A DNA stretch of 64,000 nucleotides, from the NCBI RefSeq assembly GCF_009720675.1, contig NZ_WNJO01000007.1, forward strand, positions 62,001-126,000, read 5' to 3'. This DNA comes from Secundilactobacillus folii. Lineage in GTDB: Bacteria; Bacillota; Bacilli; Lactobacillales; Lactobacillaceae. The position numbers were made by a program, and so were the translations under genes. Each line of letters starts with the position of its first letter. Within the stretch, counting starts at the first letter, position 1. The notes beneath the pieces are model-generated. The model had not been told where the DNA came from. It searched no databases and saw only the letters and a program-made list of their open reading frames with translations. Positions 39,346-62,930 of this stretch are shown here, piece after piece.

Positions 39346-40677
<1,332 letters not shown>

Positions 40678-40710
40678 TTTAACGCTAGAAATTTGTTAAT
40701 GATTCACTAA

Positions 40711-40746
40711 AAAGGCTGCTGAATTTATTCAGTGGCCTTTTTTGAT
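40711..40746 (+). terminator. Terminator after eno
   Basis: AAAGGC-TG-CTGAAT pairs with ATTCAG-TG-GCCTTT (40711-40740), then a T-run. Confidence 0.88.
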
Positions 40747-40820
40747 TTGCAAATCAGAATTTTAGCCAAAATCGACCTTTTTTGGCGTAGTTAACTCTGT
40801 ACAAAGAAAGGAGAGTTAAT

Positions 40821-42524
40821 ATGCAAATCAAAATGAGTCGATTATTGCTATGTCTGGGGGTGACCTTAGGGGTATTTGCTAACAGTGTCAGTGCTAGTGC
40901 AGCCACTGAAAGTTTCGAACCGTACACCATTGAATATAACTATACCAAGTTAGTTATTGACGCTGGTGCACTTACTAGACGACCAATTTCGGGCACCACG
41001 ACGTATCGGGTTGAAGCTGGCGGTCAATTTGCAAAATATCAAAGTATTTCTGCTGATGGAAAGCGAATCTTTAATTTTGCGCCCCTATATCCAAATTATG
41101 ATTGGAGCACGCAACAACCGGTAGTGATTTCTAAGCTGGAGGATAACCGGACATTTTTTGTCTCTCAAACTCTTGTTGCTAAGAAAGCTTTAGTTCATTT
41201 GAATTATAAGCTTAAAAATCCTGACGGGCAGATCAGTAAGAAGAAATTTCAGAACTATGATTATCAGACGGGTACTCTTGAGGGAAAATGTGTACCGATT
41301 TTGACGGAAGCACTCGGCTCTTGTTATGAGCTAGAGGATCCTAAAGAGTCCCTAATTGAAGCTGACGGTCAAAGTTTTGATACCATCATTCACCGTCGTC
41401 AAATTGATTTTACTATCGATTATAAGGTTGTTTCTGACCAGCAAATTTCCACAGCACATTTACCGGATAAAATGGAAGCCAATTTTAAGGACGTCAAAGA
41501 TAAGCTATCAGAATTAGACCAGCAAGTTAAGCAAGCTGGTTATCGTATTCTTTCAAATCAAGTTACGTATAATCTTGAAGGTTATGGTCACGTGACGTTT
41601 AATTTAAAGACCAATAATGTCAGTGGGTCTGTTTCTAATCCTGGAGAGTCCGTTGAGAAGCCGAGGCCGACGCCAGAAACCAAGCCAGAAATCGTTCCCG
41701 AGGCAAAACCAGAAGTGAAACCAGAGACTGAGCCGGATGAAGGGCAAGAGATGATTCCTGCCCCGAAACCTGACGTAACTCCAGAGGTTGAACCAGAGGC
41801 GAAACCAAGTGAAAAACCTCAGGTGACACCCGATTTTAACCCTGAGGAAAAGCCAGAGGGTACTCCTGATATTAAACCTGATGTCACCCCAGAAATTAAA
41901 TCAGAAGAGAAGCCAGAAGTGGCACCGGACACAAAGCCTGACCAGAGACCAGAGGGAAATTCTGATACTAAACCAGAAACAACTCCAGAAACTAAACCGG
42001 AAAACAAACCGGAAGTCACCCCAGAGATCAAACCCGATGAAAAACCTGATGTGACGCCGGAGACCAAGCCAGAGGAAAAACCAGATCAGATTTCAGAACC
42101 GGATGCAGGGGATAAAACGGGGACCGATCCTGAAGTCAAGCCAAATGAAAGGCCTGTTCCGAATCCTGATTTTTCTTTAAAACCGCAGCCTGATAATAAT
42201 CAAATAAGTGAAAATGATTTAAAGAAACCAGAGATAGTCGCTGATAATCAGCATTATGACGATTTAATGTATCAATTAGCCAAGATTATACAACGATTGG
42301 ATAAAATTTTATGCCAACTACGGATCCAACACCCAGTTCGTCCACATCATCGAGCACCTAAGTCACATTTGAAGCATTCAAACAATAAGCGCCATCATGC
42401 GAGTCATCAGTCCCATCATAAAAAGCCTCACTCAAAACATGCAAGACATAAGAAGCATTTTTCTCATCGACGTCATCATCATTTAAAGCAGCGCCTACAT
42501 CCGGGGCTAAATCAGCGTCACTAA
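40821..42524 (+). CDS. Secreted protein with Pro/Glu/Lys repeat spacer and His-rich basic tail
   Basis: I do not recognise a family for this 567-residue protein. A signal peptide (about 1-28, ending SVSASAA) is followed by a globular N-terminal region (about 29-275) with two cysteines, predicted mostly as beta strands. Residues about 278-455 are degenerate repeats with the pattern P-E/D-x-K-P and T/V-P-E/D. A short amphipathic helix (about 478-500) precedes a 65-residue tail with roughly 20 His plus many Lys/Arg and almost no acidic residues. There is no LPxTG, LysM, SH3b or membrane anchor. The spacer suggests wall crossing, and the basic tail could bind teichoic acids or metals; both are inferences. 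AAAGGAGAG precedes the ATG. Confidence 0.8.
   Translation: MQIKMSRLLLCLGVTLGVFANSVSASAATESFEPYTIEYNYTKLVIDAGALTRRPISGTTTYRVEAGGQFAKYQSISADGKRIFNFAPLYPNYDWSTQQPVVISKLEDNRTFFVSQTLVAKKALVHLNYKLKNPDGQISKKKFQNYDYQTGTLEGKCVPILTEALGSCYELEDPKESLIEADGQSFDTIIHRRQIDFTIDYKVVSDQQISTAHLPDKMEANFKDVKDKLSELDQQVKQAGYRILSNQVTYNLEGYGHVTFNLKTNNVSGSVSNPGESVEKPRPTPETKPEIVPEAKPEVKPETEPDEGQEMIPAPKPDVTPEVEPEAKPSEKPQVTPDFNPEEKPEGTPDIKPDVTPEIKSEEKPEVAPDTKPDQRPEGNSDTKPETTPETKPENKPEVTPEIKPDEKPDVTPETKPEEKPDQISEPDAGDKTGTDPEVKPNERPVPNPDFSLKPQPDNNQISENDLKKPEIVADNQHYDDLMYQLAKIIQRLDKILCQLRIQHPVRPHHRAPKSHLKHSNNKRHHASHQSHHKKPHSKHARHKKHFSHRRHHHLKQRLHPGLNQRH
41653..42190 (+). repeat. Coding repeat region (Pro-Glu-x-Lys-Pro type)
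   Basis: Within the secreted protein gene, degenerate 15- to 30-bp units encode x-K-P-E/D-x-x-P-E motifs, for example KPEVTPEIKPDEKPD and KPDVTPETKPEEKPD. Such units expand and contract by recombination, so length may vary between strains. Antisense open frames here are shadows of the repeat. Confidence 0.8.
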
Positions 42525-42600: not shown

Positions 42601-44148
42601 ATGATTGAAATGAATGTGTTAAGACATAAAAAATGGGATTTCACCCGAATTAACGCGGTGCTGCAAGGAATCCTAATTGGATTGATCGCCGGTTTCATCG
42701 TGAGCACCTTTCGCTTATTGATCAGTCATGGTTTGAAACTTGTCCAATGGTTTTTCCACCTGGCTAAGGGGAATCTATGGTTGCTACTGATCTGGGTGGT
42801 CTTCAGTGTCATCTTGACACTGCTGATCGGACGCTGGCTGAAAACGACGCCAGAGATTACAGGTTCCGGTATTCCGCAGGTTGAAGGGCAATTAATGGGT
42901 GAGGTTGAATACCACTGGTGGCCTGTCTTATGGAAGAAATTTGTTGGCGGTGTGCTGGCCATTGGCAGTGGGCTTTTTCTTGGTCGGGAAGGGCCTTCTA
43001 TTCAGCTTGGAGCAACGGTTGGGCAAGGATTTGCGGAGTCCCGTAAAATTACCGGTAATAAACGGCGAACCTTAATTGCTAGTGGCGCCTCGGCTGGTTT
43101 ATCTGCTGCGTTCAATGCCCCGATCGCCAGTTCGCTCTTTATTTTGGAAGAAGTGTATCATAATTTTTCGACCATGATTTGGATCACCGCATTAGCAAGC
43201 GCAATCGCAGCCGACTTTGTTTCAACGTTTTTCTTTGGTTTGACACCTGTTTTACATATTACTTATGTCCATCCTTTACCCTTAACGCAGTATGGCTGGT
43301 TGGTTATTTTGGGGCTTCTACTGGGTCTATTTGGGCGGCTGTATCAGGTGGTCGTTTTACGGGTCGGCGAGTGGTATCACCGTATCAAGTGGCTGCCAGA
43401 TCAGTACAATAGTCTCATTGCGTTTTTATTGTTGATTCCGGTTGGCCTGTTTATTCCCCAAATTCTCGGTGGGGGTAATCAGTTGATCGTTTCGATCGGT
43501 GGCAATGCACCTACGGCAATGATTCTCCTGGTCGTCTTTATCGTTCGGTTTGTCTATTCGATGATTTCATATGGGACCGGATTACCCGGCGGTATTTTTC
43601 TGCCTATCTTGACTTTAGGCGCTGTTTTAGGAGCCCTGTTTGGACAATTATTAGTGAGCTGGCACTTGGCCAGCCCGGCAGTGGTGCCAATTTTTACGAT
43701 TGCTGCCATGGCTGGATACTTTGCTGGCATTAGCAAGGCACCATTTACGGCTATTTTACTGATTACTGAAATGGTTGGGACACTTCAGCATCTTATGCCG
43801 TTAGCATTAGTCTCGTTAATTGCCTATTTGACGGTAGATGTTCTCGGTGGTGCGCCAGTGTACGCAGCCATGCTTGAAAAATTTCTTCAGAAGTCCCATA
43901 CTGGACAGACTGTACCAGTGACACAATTGGAGTTCCCAGTGTTTGAAAATGCCGTTTTAGACGGAAAGCAAGTTCGTGATGTTGACTGGCCAGATGGTGC
44001 TTTACTGGTTGAAATCAAACGTGGTGAAAAAATCATTGTGCCACATGGTGACACAGAGATCCGGTTAGGTGATACACTATTATTGAGTGTCCCACAGAAG
44101 TATTTGATTCATGTTCGTCACGTGATGATGCACTTATCTGGCAATTGA
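42601..44148 (+). CDS. clcA: CLC-type chloride/proton antiporter with C-terminal TrkA-C domain
   Basis: The 515-residue protein has the CLC selectivity motifs GSGIPQVEG, GREGPSIQLG (with the gating glutamate, typical of H+/Cl- exchangers) and GLPGGIFLP. About ten or more membrane helices occupy residues 20-425, and a soluble TrkA-C-like domain (about 440-510) may sense ligands. In acid-producing bacteria such proteins can assist in acid stress. AGGAG lies just before ATG 42601. A possible extended -10 (TGATAGAAT) ends at 42573. Confidence 0.92.
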   Translation: MIEMNVLRHKKWDFTRINAVLQGILIGLIAGFIVSTFRLLISHGLKLVQWFFHLAKGNLWLLLIWVVFSVILTLLIGRWLKTTPEITGSGIPQVEGQLMGEVEYHWWPVLWKKFVGGVLAIGSGLFLGREGPSIQLGATVGQGFAESRKITGNKRRTLIASGASAGLSAAFNAPIASSLFILEEVYHNFSTMIWITALASAIAADFVSTFFFGLTPVLHITYVHPLPLTQYGWLVILGLLLGLFGRLYQVVVLRVGEWYHRIKWLPDQYNSLIAFLLLIPVGLFIPQILGGGNQLIVSIGGNAPTAMILLVVFIVRFVYSMISYGTGLPGGIFLPILTLGAVLGALFGQLLVSWHLASPAVVPIFTIAAMAGYFAGISKAPFTAILLITEMVGTLQHLMPLALVSLIAYLTVDVLGGAPVYAAMLEKFLQKSHTGQTVPVTQLEFPVFENAVLDGKQVRDVDWPDGALLVEIKRGEKIIVPHGDTEIRLGDTLLLSVPQKYLIHVRHVMMHLSGN

Positions 44149-61112: not shown

Positions 61113-62930
61113 ATGTGTGGAATTGTTGGTGTTACAGGTAGTGATAACGCGGTTAAAATCTTACTGGATGGCCTAGAAAAGCTGGAGTATCGTGGTTACG
61201 ATTCTGCCGGCATTTATGTAAACGCCCAAAATGGTAAGGATTACCTCGTGAAAGAAAAGGGACGGATCTCTGACCTGAAACGTGAAATTGGGCCTGATGT
61301 GCACGGATCCACGGGGATTGGTCACACTCGCTGGGCAACTCACGGTGTTGTGAGCGTCGCTAATGCACACCCACAAGTTTCTCAAGATAACCGGTTCTAT
61401 TTGGTTCATAACGGTGTGATCGATAATTTTCAAGAACTGAAAAGTGATTACCTAAGTGATGTACCATTTACTAGTCAGACTGATACTGAAGTTGTGGTTC
61501 AATTGATCGATAAGATTGCAGTTGATGAAGGCCTGAACGCTCATGATGCATTTGTCAAAACCCTTAGTTTACTTAAGGGGTCTTCCTACGCCTTCTTGTT
61601 AATGGACCGTGAAGATCCTAAAACACTCTATGTTGCAAAGAATAAGAGCCCATTGCTGATTGGTGTGGGTGACGGCTTTAACGTCGTTTGCTCTGATGCA
61701 CTGGCAATGCTGCGTGAGACACATGACTTTTTGGAATTGATGGATGGTGAAGTGGTCACCATTACGCCTGACAAGGTCAAGATTGAAGACCGTGATGGTA
61801 ACCCGGTTGAGCGCGACACGTTCCATGTCGATATGGATGCTGGTGAGACTGACAAGGGAACCTACCCATTCTACATGTTAAAAGAAATCGACGAGCAACC
61901 AAACGTTATGCGCCGTTTGGCCCAGGTTTATCTGTCTGAAACCGGTGAACCAGTTATTAGCAATAAGCTGTTAAATTCAATGAAGCAGGCTGATCGAATC
62001 TACATCGTTGGTGCTGGAACTAGTTACCATGCCGGTTTGGTTGGGAAGCGGTTATTTGAAAGCCTCACCCAGACACCTACTGAAGTTCATATTTCATCAG
62101 AATTTGCGTATGAGCAACCGATTTTGTCACAGAAACCATTCTTCATCTTTCTGTCGCAAAGTGGTGAAACCGCTGATTCACGTGAAGTGCTGGTCAACGT
62201 TAATGCGGCCGGTTACGAAAGTTTGACGATCACTAACGTTCAAAATTCAACGCTGTCTCGTGAAGCCACTTATACGATGTTACTTCACGCGGGTCCTGAA
62301 ATCGCCGTTGCTTCGACGAAGGCTTATACCGCACAAATCGCTAGTGAGGCCATTTTAGCCAAGGCGTTAGGAGAGGCCGACAATCAGATCGTGGCACAAC
62401 GTTTCGACGTCCGTCATCAACTGGGACTTGTTGCTACCGGCATTCAGGCTATCGTTGATGAAAAGGGTAAATTAGAAGAGTTAGCAAAGTCTGAATTTTT
62501 GCACACGCCAAATGCATTTTACATTGGCCGTGGTATTGACTGGAGCGTATCACTTGAAGCTGCTTTGAAGCTGAAAGAAATTTCTTACGTTCAAGCTGAG
62601 GGTTTTGCCTCTGGTGAATTGAAGCACGGCACGATTGCCTTGATTGAAAAGGGAACGCCGGTTATCGGCATTATTACCCAGGCTAAAACGGCTGGTTTAA
62701 CGCGTTCAAACCTGCAGGAAACACTCGCTCGTGGTGCGCATATCTTGACCATTGCTTCCAAGAGCTTGGCAAAGCCGGAGGACAACATTATTTTGCCAGA
62801 TGTTGACCCACTGATGTCGCCGTTACTGAGTGTTGTTCCGACTCAATTGATTGCATACTATACCAGTTTGCACAAGGGCTTAGATGTTGATAAACCACGT
62901 AATTTGGCTAAGAGCGTCACCGTTGAATAG
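61113..62930 (+). CDS. glmS: Glutamine-fructose-6-phosphate aminotransferase (isomerizing)
   Basis: GlmS makes glucosamine-6-phosphate from fructose-6-phosphate and glutamine, the entry to amino-sugar synthesis. The 605 residues start with the catalytic Cys (MCGIVGV) of the Ntn glutaminase domain (HTRWATHG and NGVIDNF motifs). Two SIS sugar isomerase domains follow (GAGTSYHAG, SQSGETADS, STKAYTAQ), ending in PRNLAKSVTVE. A long hairpin terminator follows. Confidence 0.97.
   Translation: MCGIVGVTGSDNAVKILLDGLEKLEYRGYDSAGIYVNAQNGKDYLVKEKGRISDLKREIGPDVHGSTGIGHTRWATHGVVSVANAHPQVSQDNRFYLVHNGVIDNFQELKSDYLSDVPFTSQTDTEVVVQLIDKIAVDEGLNAHDAFVKTLSLLKGSSYAFLLMDREDPKTLYVAKNKSPLLIGVGDGFNVVCSDALAMLRETHDFLELMDGEVVTITPDKVKIEDRDGNPVERDTFHVDMDAGETDKGTYPFYMLKEIDEQPNVMRRLAQVYLSETGEPVISNKLLNSMKQADRIYIVGAGTSYHAGLVGKRLFESLTQTPTEVHISSEFAYEQPILSQKPFFIFLSQSGETADSREVLVNVNAAGYESLTITNVQNSTLSREATYTMLLHAGPEIAVASTKAYTAQIASEAILAKALGEADNQIVAQRFDVRHQLGLVATGIQAIVDEKGKLEELAKSEFLHTPNAFYIGRGIDWSVSLEAALKLKEISYVQAEGFASGELKHGTIALIEKGTPVIGIITQAKTAGLTRSNLQETLARGAHILTIASKSLAKPEDNIILPDVDPLMSPLLSVVPTQLIAYYTSLHKGLDVDKPRNLAKSVTVE

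Follow-up and report, generated by a model that had tools for sequence, protein, structure and literature searches.

The PrtP-type cell envelope proteases of lactobacilli have either an LPXTG signal or a lysine-rich, acid-poor, non-covalent anchoring domain, but not both (PMC10535647). PrtP has LPXTG, while PrtB, PrtL, and PrtH have SlpA domains; here the cationic anchor consists of PF03217 in tandem and is 114–136 amino acids long. Similarly, the C-terminal domain of the Lactobacillus S-layer protein SlpA is positively charged and binds (lipo)teichoic acid; it is folded and contains phosphate sites, and a motif has been proposed for it (PMC11181022). Enolase and GAPDH are also attached to lactobacillar walls, by ionic, lipoteichoic-acid-linked, and pH-dependent binding. 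According to a review (PMC4009768), they lack export and anchoring motifs, have isoelectric points of about 5, and detach at neutral or basic pH, while an S-layer protein with an isoelectric point of 10 is unaffected. So electrostatic anchoring is already known, and the anchor that we propose here is ordinary in kind.

We analyzed a stretch of 64,000 nucleotides from Secundilactobacillus folii (the window; positions 62,001 to 126,000 of contig NZ_WNJO01000007.1). Between eno and a chloride channel gene, in a position that we will call the slot, the open reading frame 40821-42524 (+ strand) encodes a protein of 567 amino acids. The frame is unbroken, and it is immediately preceded by AAAGGAGA, which resembles a ribosome binding site. 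The order of parts in the original prediction, which was made by reading the window's sequence, was borne out: a signal peptide, a globular region (residues 29 to ~270), a P-E-x-K-P spacer, a helix, and a tail (Table 1).

Table 1. Features of the slot and of the protein that it encodes, in window coordinates.
Feature	Residues	Position	Strand	Evidence
eno, conserved left neighbor of the slot		39358..40677	+	
Hairpin and T-run after eno, intrinsic-terminator-like		40700..40752	+	fold −19.8 kcal/mol, z −4.5
Signal peptide	1-28	40821..40904	+	by eye; N-terminus aligned in 9 rows of A1
N-terminal globular part		40905..41351	+	hhalign A1 vs. A6, E 4.2e-6, 123 columns
C-terminal globular subdomain	167-237	41400..41612	+	AlphaFold2 model
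Proline-rich P-E-x-K-P spacer, net acidic	~279-475	41655..42245	+	
Amphipathic heptad helix, candidate coiled coil	476-503	42246..42329	+	AlphaFold2, moment test
Cationic tail, proposed non-covalent wall anchor	504-567	42330..42521	+	
ClC-type chloride channel gene (clc), right neighbor of the slot		42601..44148	+	Pfam PF00654, E 5e-99

The protein has no significant match in Pfam or NCBIfam. At E ≤ 1, Pfam gave two sub-threshold matches, neither of which is a LysM, WxL, choline-binding, GW, or SH3b domain, and PF03217 does not match the full-length protein at this level. MucBP (PF06458) is absent at E ≤ 1 from the window protein and from all 9 rows of the family profile described below (A1). 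A sortase signal (an LPxTG-like motif, a hydrophobic stretch, and a basic end) is also absent from the open reading frame, which agrees with the earlier claim that the protein has neither LPxTG nor wall-binding repeats. We found no relative of the protein in the genome_contigs collection or among PDB sequences, nor of its globular part in plasmids, nor of its helix and tail in phages. On the minus strand, antisense to the spacer, there is an 82-amino-acid open reading frame with LSGVTSGF-type repeats (41819-42067); these repeats are a by-product of the spacer's Pro-Glu-Lys codons.

The tail's 64 residues (504-567) include 20 His, 9 Lys, 8 Arg, and no Asp or Glu, so the original prediction was right about the roughly 20 His and many Lys or Arg in the last ~65 residues. 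Among the 55 stop-to-stop frames of at least 150 codons within the window, this is the most basic C-terminus: K+R+H minus D+E is 38 in the last 70 residues, and the next highest value is 14. AlphaFold2 leaves the tail unstructured and predicts a single 28-residue helix before it (476-503; the middle two blocks have pLDDT of 92 and 94). The helix moment is 1.45. Shuffled sequences averaged 0.65, and 1.5% of them were as high as the helix. By eye, the LL-x-x-L spacing of the helix is repeated in seven relatives.

We propose that the tail anchors the protein to the wall by binding polyanions, and that it took over from the sortase signal of a protein of MucBP-type lineage; we put the probability of this at about 0.7. 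The gene product would be secreted to the cell surface and would belong, though strongly diverged, to an adhesin-like lineage that is encoded right after eno. The proline-rich spacer would carry the globular part outward from the wall, the heptad helix would probably hold at least two chains together, and the disordered tails of Lys, Arg, and His would use their charge to grip polyanions in the wall (teichoic acids or another phosphate polymer). In Secundilactobacillus, the tail would have replaced an ancestral LPQTxE sortase signal. We infer the wall binding, the ligand, the oligomerization, the adhesin role, the direction of the change, and the pH tuning that is considered below.

The lysine-rich anchor that proteases have in place of LPXTG is the closest precedent, so a charge anchor has a published parallel, and the alternation between anchors is akin to what we find among the slot proteins. 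Unlike the tandem domain of the proteases, the candidate anchor here is a disordered tail of 54–69 residues behind a heptad helix, without a match to PF03217, and the tail is His-rich in most of the Secundilactobacillus copies. The window tail shares its Lys-rich, acid-depleted composition with the SlpA/SLAP anchor, but the SlpA domain is folded, the window protein has no Pfam match to it, and teichoic-acid binding by the tail is predicted. Several of the slot proteins are MucBP-type surface proteins, like the LPXTG adhesins of lactobacilli, but the window protein itself has neither a Pfam match to MucBP nor a sortase signal.

The comparison of slots among genomes supports our proposal. The globular region has homologs in 9 of the 15 Secundilactobacillus genomes, including the window's own (the other eight are 27–36% identical), and in no other of the 40 genera in our sample of 397 genomes from the family. 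The gene lies directly after eno in 8 of the 9 cases; in G010, the contig begins at the gene, and clc follows. All nine homologs end in a Lys/His-rich tail, which in G012 lies past an assembly gap in another frame and in G007 lies on a second contig, with the heptad helix missing (by eye). (The G007 tail was read by eye and is outside the counts of 13 terminal tails.) In the homolog search that had been suggested for the tail, the tail profile (A4) matched 8 of the 397 family genomes, all 8 of which are its own source rows. G007 and G013 escaped A4, and the second genus's slot proteins (below) escaped both A1 and A4; these came to light only when we read the slot.

In the other six Secundilactobacillus genomes, where we read the place that follows eno or precedes clc, the slot differs. 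In the early-branching genomes G004, G005, and G008 (3 of the 15), the slot protein has a sortase signal. G004 encodes an LPQTDE protein with P-E-E-K-P repeats, and G005 and G008 encode LPQTSE and LPQTDE proteins, with clc located elsewhere in the genome. In G013, the protein is split between frames and has a Lys-rich tail, a terminal helix-like stretch, and no match in Pfam. G002 and G009 have no gene in the slot between eno and clc. These two (L028, L029) are related genomes of 3.5–3.6 Mb, and the slot gene was apparently lost.

Of ten genera sampled, the one whose eno is nearest to the window's (the "second genus"; 24 genomes with eno 88–92% identical) has a secreted-looking slot protein in 23 genomes, and in the remaining one (G143) the contig ends. 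Of the 24, 17 end in a sortase signal (LPQTG, LPQTS, LPQTN, or LPKTG), while four have a Lys/Arg-rich tail without a sortase signal (G027, G253, G280, and G387). The other two are ambiguous: G371 has a split frame and a basic C-terminus without LPxTG, and G379 (L115) is split in two frames, with a long, charged, coiled-coil-like end that is neither LPxTG nor a cationic tail. (G379 is 86% complete and has no sortase match.) The splits of G013, G387, G335, and G371 over reading frames are perhaps assembly errors, and G387 and G013 were scored as cationic from a tail that was read in a second frame. Across the 39 genomes of the two genera, 20 slot proteins are of the sortase class, 14 are cationic without a sortase signal, 2 are absent, 2 are ambiguous, and 1 is at a contig end. 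In nine other genera, with one genome each, the first three listed open reading frames after eno include no obvious counterpart. In G017 (L075), which belongs to another genus, a different large secreted-looking protein (a 758-codon frame) lies right after eno.

Three proteins of the second genus (G335, G345, and G363; L108, L106, and L103) have a Lys/Arg(/His)-rich stretch at most ~80 residues before LPQTG. K+R+H minus D+E is 21–25 per 40 residues in these stretches, and the 13 terminal tails counted reach 20–28. It is plausible, from the sequences, that the stretch is an intermediate between the two anchor types. Since it coexists with LPQTG, it may serve another job there.

Are the proteins with the two types of C-termini related? 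We compared the profile of the window family (A1, 9 rows) to a profile of 14 slot proteins that were chosen by eye as alignable (A6). A6 has 12 rows from the second genus plus G005 and G008; 11 of the rows have sortase signals and 3 are cationic. Of the second genus's 23 proteins, A6 omits the near-copies G166, G206, and G292, as well as G280, G304, G315, G325, G345, G363, G371, and G379. At E ≤ 1, 11 of the 14 members match MucBP (best E 2.6e-8). hhalign matched A1 to A6 over 123 columns with a score of 44.5 (E 4.2e-6), as compared to at best 19.6 (E 0.039) for 200 column shuffles and 12.1 for the reversed profile. The match spans positions 27–175 of 276. Judging by these profiles, the globular region of the window protein is related, though diverged, to the region of the other slot proteins that contains MucBP. 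This profile test covered the A6 rows and the near-copies, 15 of the 23 proteins from the second genus; the cationic G280 is among the other 8. G013 is linked to A1 by the C-terminal subdomain (E 2e-4, which none of 100 shuffles equaled). G004, the closest Secundilactobacillus with a sortase signal, matches A1 weakly (E 0.06–0.1; 1 of 100 shuffles was as good, or 55 of 100 against A6), so what ties it to the family is its position and architecture. In the sole match to A1 from outside Secundilactobacillus, G253 (E 5.7e-4), only the first 81 positions, including the signal peptide, align with an unrelated-looking secreted protein, and we rejected it.

Structure prediction, which had been proposed as a check, gave a poor model of the globular region (pLDDT 47). 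In it, the C-terminal subdomain (block pLDDT of 48–83) has a predicted beta-beta-alpha-beta-beta arrangement, like that of protein L/G. Foldseek returned 183 matches for the globular model, none of them at E ≤ 0.001. The best Z scores from VIA were 6.7 (BamA) and 6.4 (protein L), which are below the level that shows kinship. As far as the model goes, the likeness to protein L or BamA is a common arrangement only. The A6 profile matched six PDB sequences, the best being 2kvz (E 3.4e-9, named IspE), followed by 2kt7 (an LPXTG protein, E 0.0014), 9qf8 (E 0.0064), and 4mt5 (mucus-binding, E 0.063).

To count the changes in anchor class, we used a tree of 38 genomes (eno, clc, est, and part of rnr; LG+G4, careful search). 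G005 and G008 (support 100/100) and then G004 (98/96), all of the sortase class, branch before the cationic Secundilactobacillus (92/92). The second genus's four cationic genomes group together in a clade of their own (100/99). A single clade of all 14 cationic genomes was rejected (p-AU 4.6e-6), and the minimum number of changes is 2 (bootstrap range 2–3). So there were at least two separate changes of anchor class. This two-state count leaves out G371, G379, G002, G009, and G143; scoring G371 as cationic gives 3 changes, and scoring G379 as cationic as well gives 4. A quick tree with four outgroup genomes agrees, with long branches flagged among the outgroups. The counts carry no direction, and the careful tree leaves the order in the second genus undecided. 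But because the earliest branches of Secundilactobacillus have sortase ends, a change from sortase to cationic is the shorter reading there, which suggests that direction. We also considered that a loss of sortase might have forced the change. We rejected this because every one of the 14 cationic genomes still has a match to sortase, as do 15 of 15 Secundilactobacillus and 23 of 24 second-genus genomes overall.

The tail is under purifying selection. In two close pairs (53–64 tail codons), its dN/dS is 0.14 and 0.14, and there is no acidic residue in any of the 30 substitutions in the tail. In the same pairs, dN/dS is 0.34 and 0.40 for the globular part and 0.41 and 0.08 for the spacer; the helix has 0.65 and 0.14, from 7 and 5 changes. 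The idea that the tail evolves more slowly than the globular part is not supported: dN is comparable (0.12 and 0.17 for the tail versus 0.13 and 0.16), and the ratio is lower for the tail because its dS is higher (0.87 and 1.21 versus 0.39 and 0.40). We also considered that the tail might be a frameshifted sortase signal, but LPxTG is absent from all three frames of the tail and the downstream DNA, both in the window and in five relatives. Because all nine homologs end Lys/His-rich and the tail's dN/dS is 0.14, the tail is the product of neither chance nor a frameshift. Homologs with a sortase signal, which the original prediction had regarded as evidence against it, turned up only in other clades.

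What would the tail bind? In the last 70 residues of seven relatives, Lys and Arg (25–27) outnumber His (11–15), so the dominance of His is peculiar to the window's copy. The number of His ranges from 3 (in G013) to 20 across the Secundilactobacillus tails counted, and from 2 to 6 in the second genus's four cationic tails. Unlike the number of His, a strong positive charge and a near-absence of acids are kept across the tails (0 or 1 acidic residues in each of the seven computed). The original prediction had noted that the tail could bind metal ions, and the tail might chiefly be a metallophore-like module or a buffer for Zn, Ni, or Cu, with attachment being secondary. The 20 His of the window tail and the 11–15 of its relatives would fit this. 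However, it is the charge and not the His content that persists, tail alignments from several species have no invariant His column, and His and Gln replace each other at three tail sites in the two close pairs. Given these sequences, we consider it improbable that the tail serves mainly to bind metal. Histatins are cationic antimicrobial peptides that are rich in Lys and His, and the tail resembles such peptides in its disordered, Lys/His-rich composition. So we also considered that proteolysis might free the tail as an antimicrobial or nucleic-acid-binding peptide, whose sequence would be kept by purifying selection. This seems very unlikely: by eye, the alignment has no obvious conserved cleavage site, and an antimicrobial would not explain why the tail stands in place of a wall-sorting signal.

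Attachment by charge, as in the original prediction, is the reading that the sequences best support, because proteins in the same slot carry sortase signals and the tail takes that place. The protein could instead simply be secreted, with the tail binding polyanions of a host or plant, extracellular DNA, or neighboring cells, or cross-linking acidic spacers into a condensate. At pH 7, the computed net charge of the window copy is about −26 for the spacer and +19 for the tail, so self-association is conceivable. But the spacer's charge ranges from about 0 to −39 in the seven proteins computed, so the pairing of spacer and tail is no constant of the family, and we view this as unlikely. As for the dependence on pH that had been suggested, the modeled charge of the window tail falls from about +37 at pH 4 to +19 at pH 7 (using textbook pKa values), and six relatives have +24 to +26 at pH 7. 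Since the tail is still at +19 at pH 7, binding would weaken but not vanish, and full release is not expected; this is unlike enolase and GAPDH. Tuning by pH is plausible from this model. A more ambitious version is that the disordered Lys/His polycation and the coiled-coil helix form a new, convergent, pH-tuned wall anchor, in which the multiple tails of an oligomer hold on to teichoic acids; it grips more strongly upon acidification by the cell, is looser near neutral pH, and arises repeatedly as the basic stretch before LPQTG becomes terminal. We think that this is possible but doubtful.

Among the open-access literature matches listed, neither this protein nor this type of tail is described in the titles or the starts of abstracts. 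Nor do these matches mention that, at one locus, a disordered Lys-rich tail has repeatedly taken the place of a sortase signal, in Secundilactobacillus together with His and a heptad helix. The slot amounts to a natural experiment, with covalent, mixed (basic stretch plus LPQTG), and purely cationic C-termini in bacteria that kept sortase, and it makes it possible to test why a bacterium gives up a covalent anchor. The tail also offers a short display tag, defined by its composition, for acid-tolerant food lactobacilli.

The slot gene probably has a transcript of its own, as a terminator-like hairpin separates it from eno (Table 1); 0 of 200 shuffles were as stable. (A consensus scan, which was uninformative, listed neither this hairpin nor a promoter upstream of the gene.) That the slot gene shares its locus with eno may be a coincidence. 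On the other side, clc is the neighbor in most of the genomes that we read, but not in G005, G008, G027, G064, G166, or G354. In G005 and G008 (L058 and L059), the slot gene is followed by a small open reading frame that we presume to be SecG-like, and one is likewise found between clc and an esterase gene in G007 (L057).
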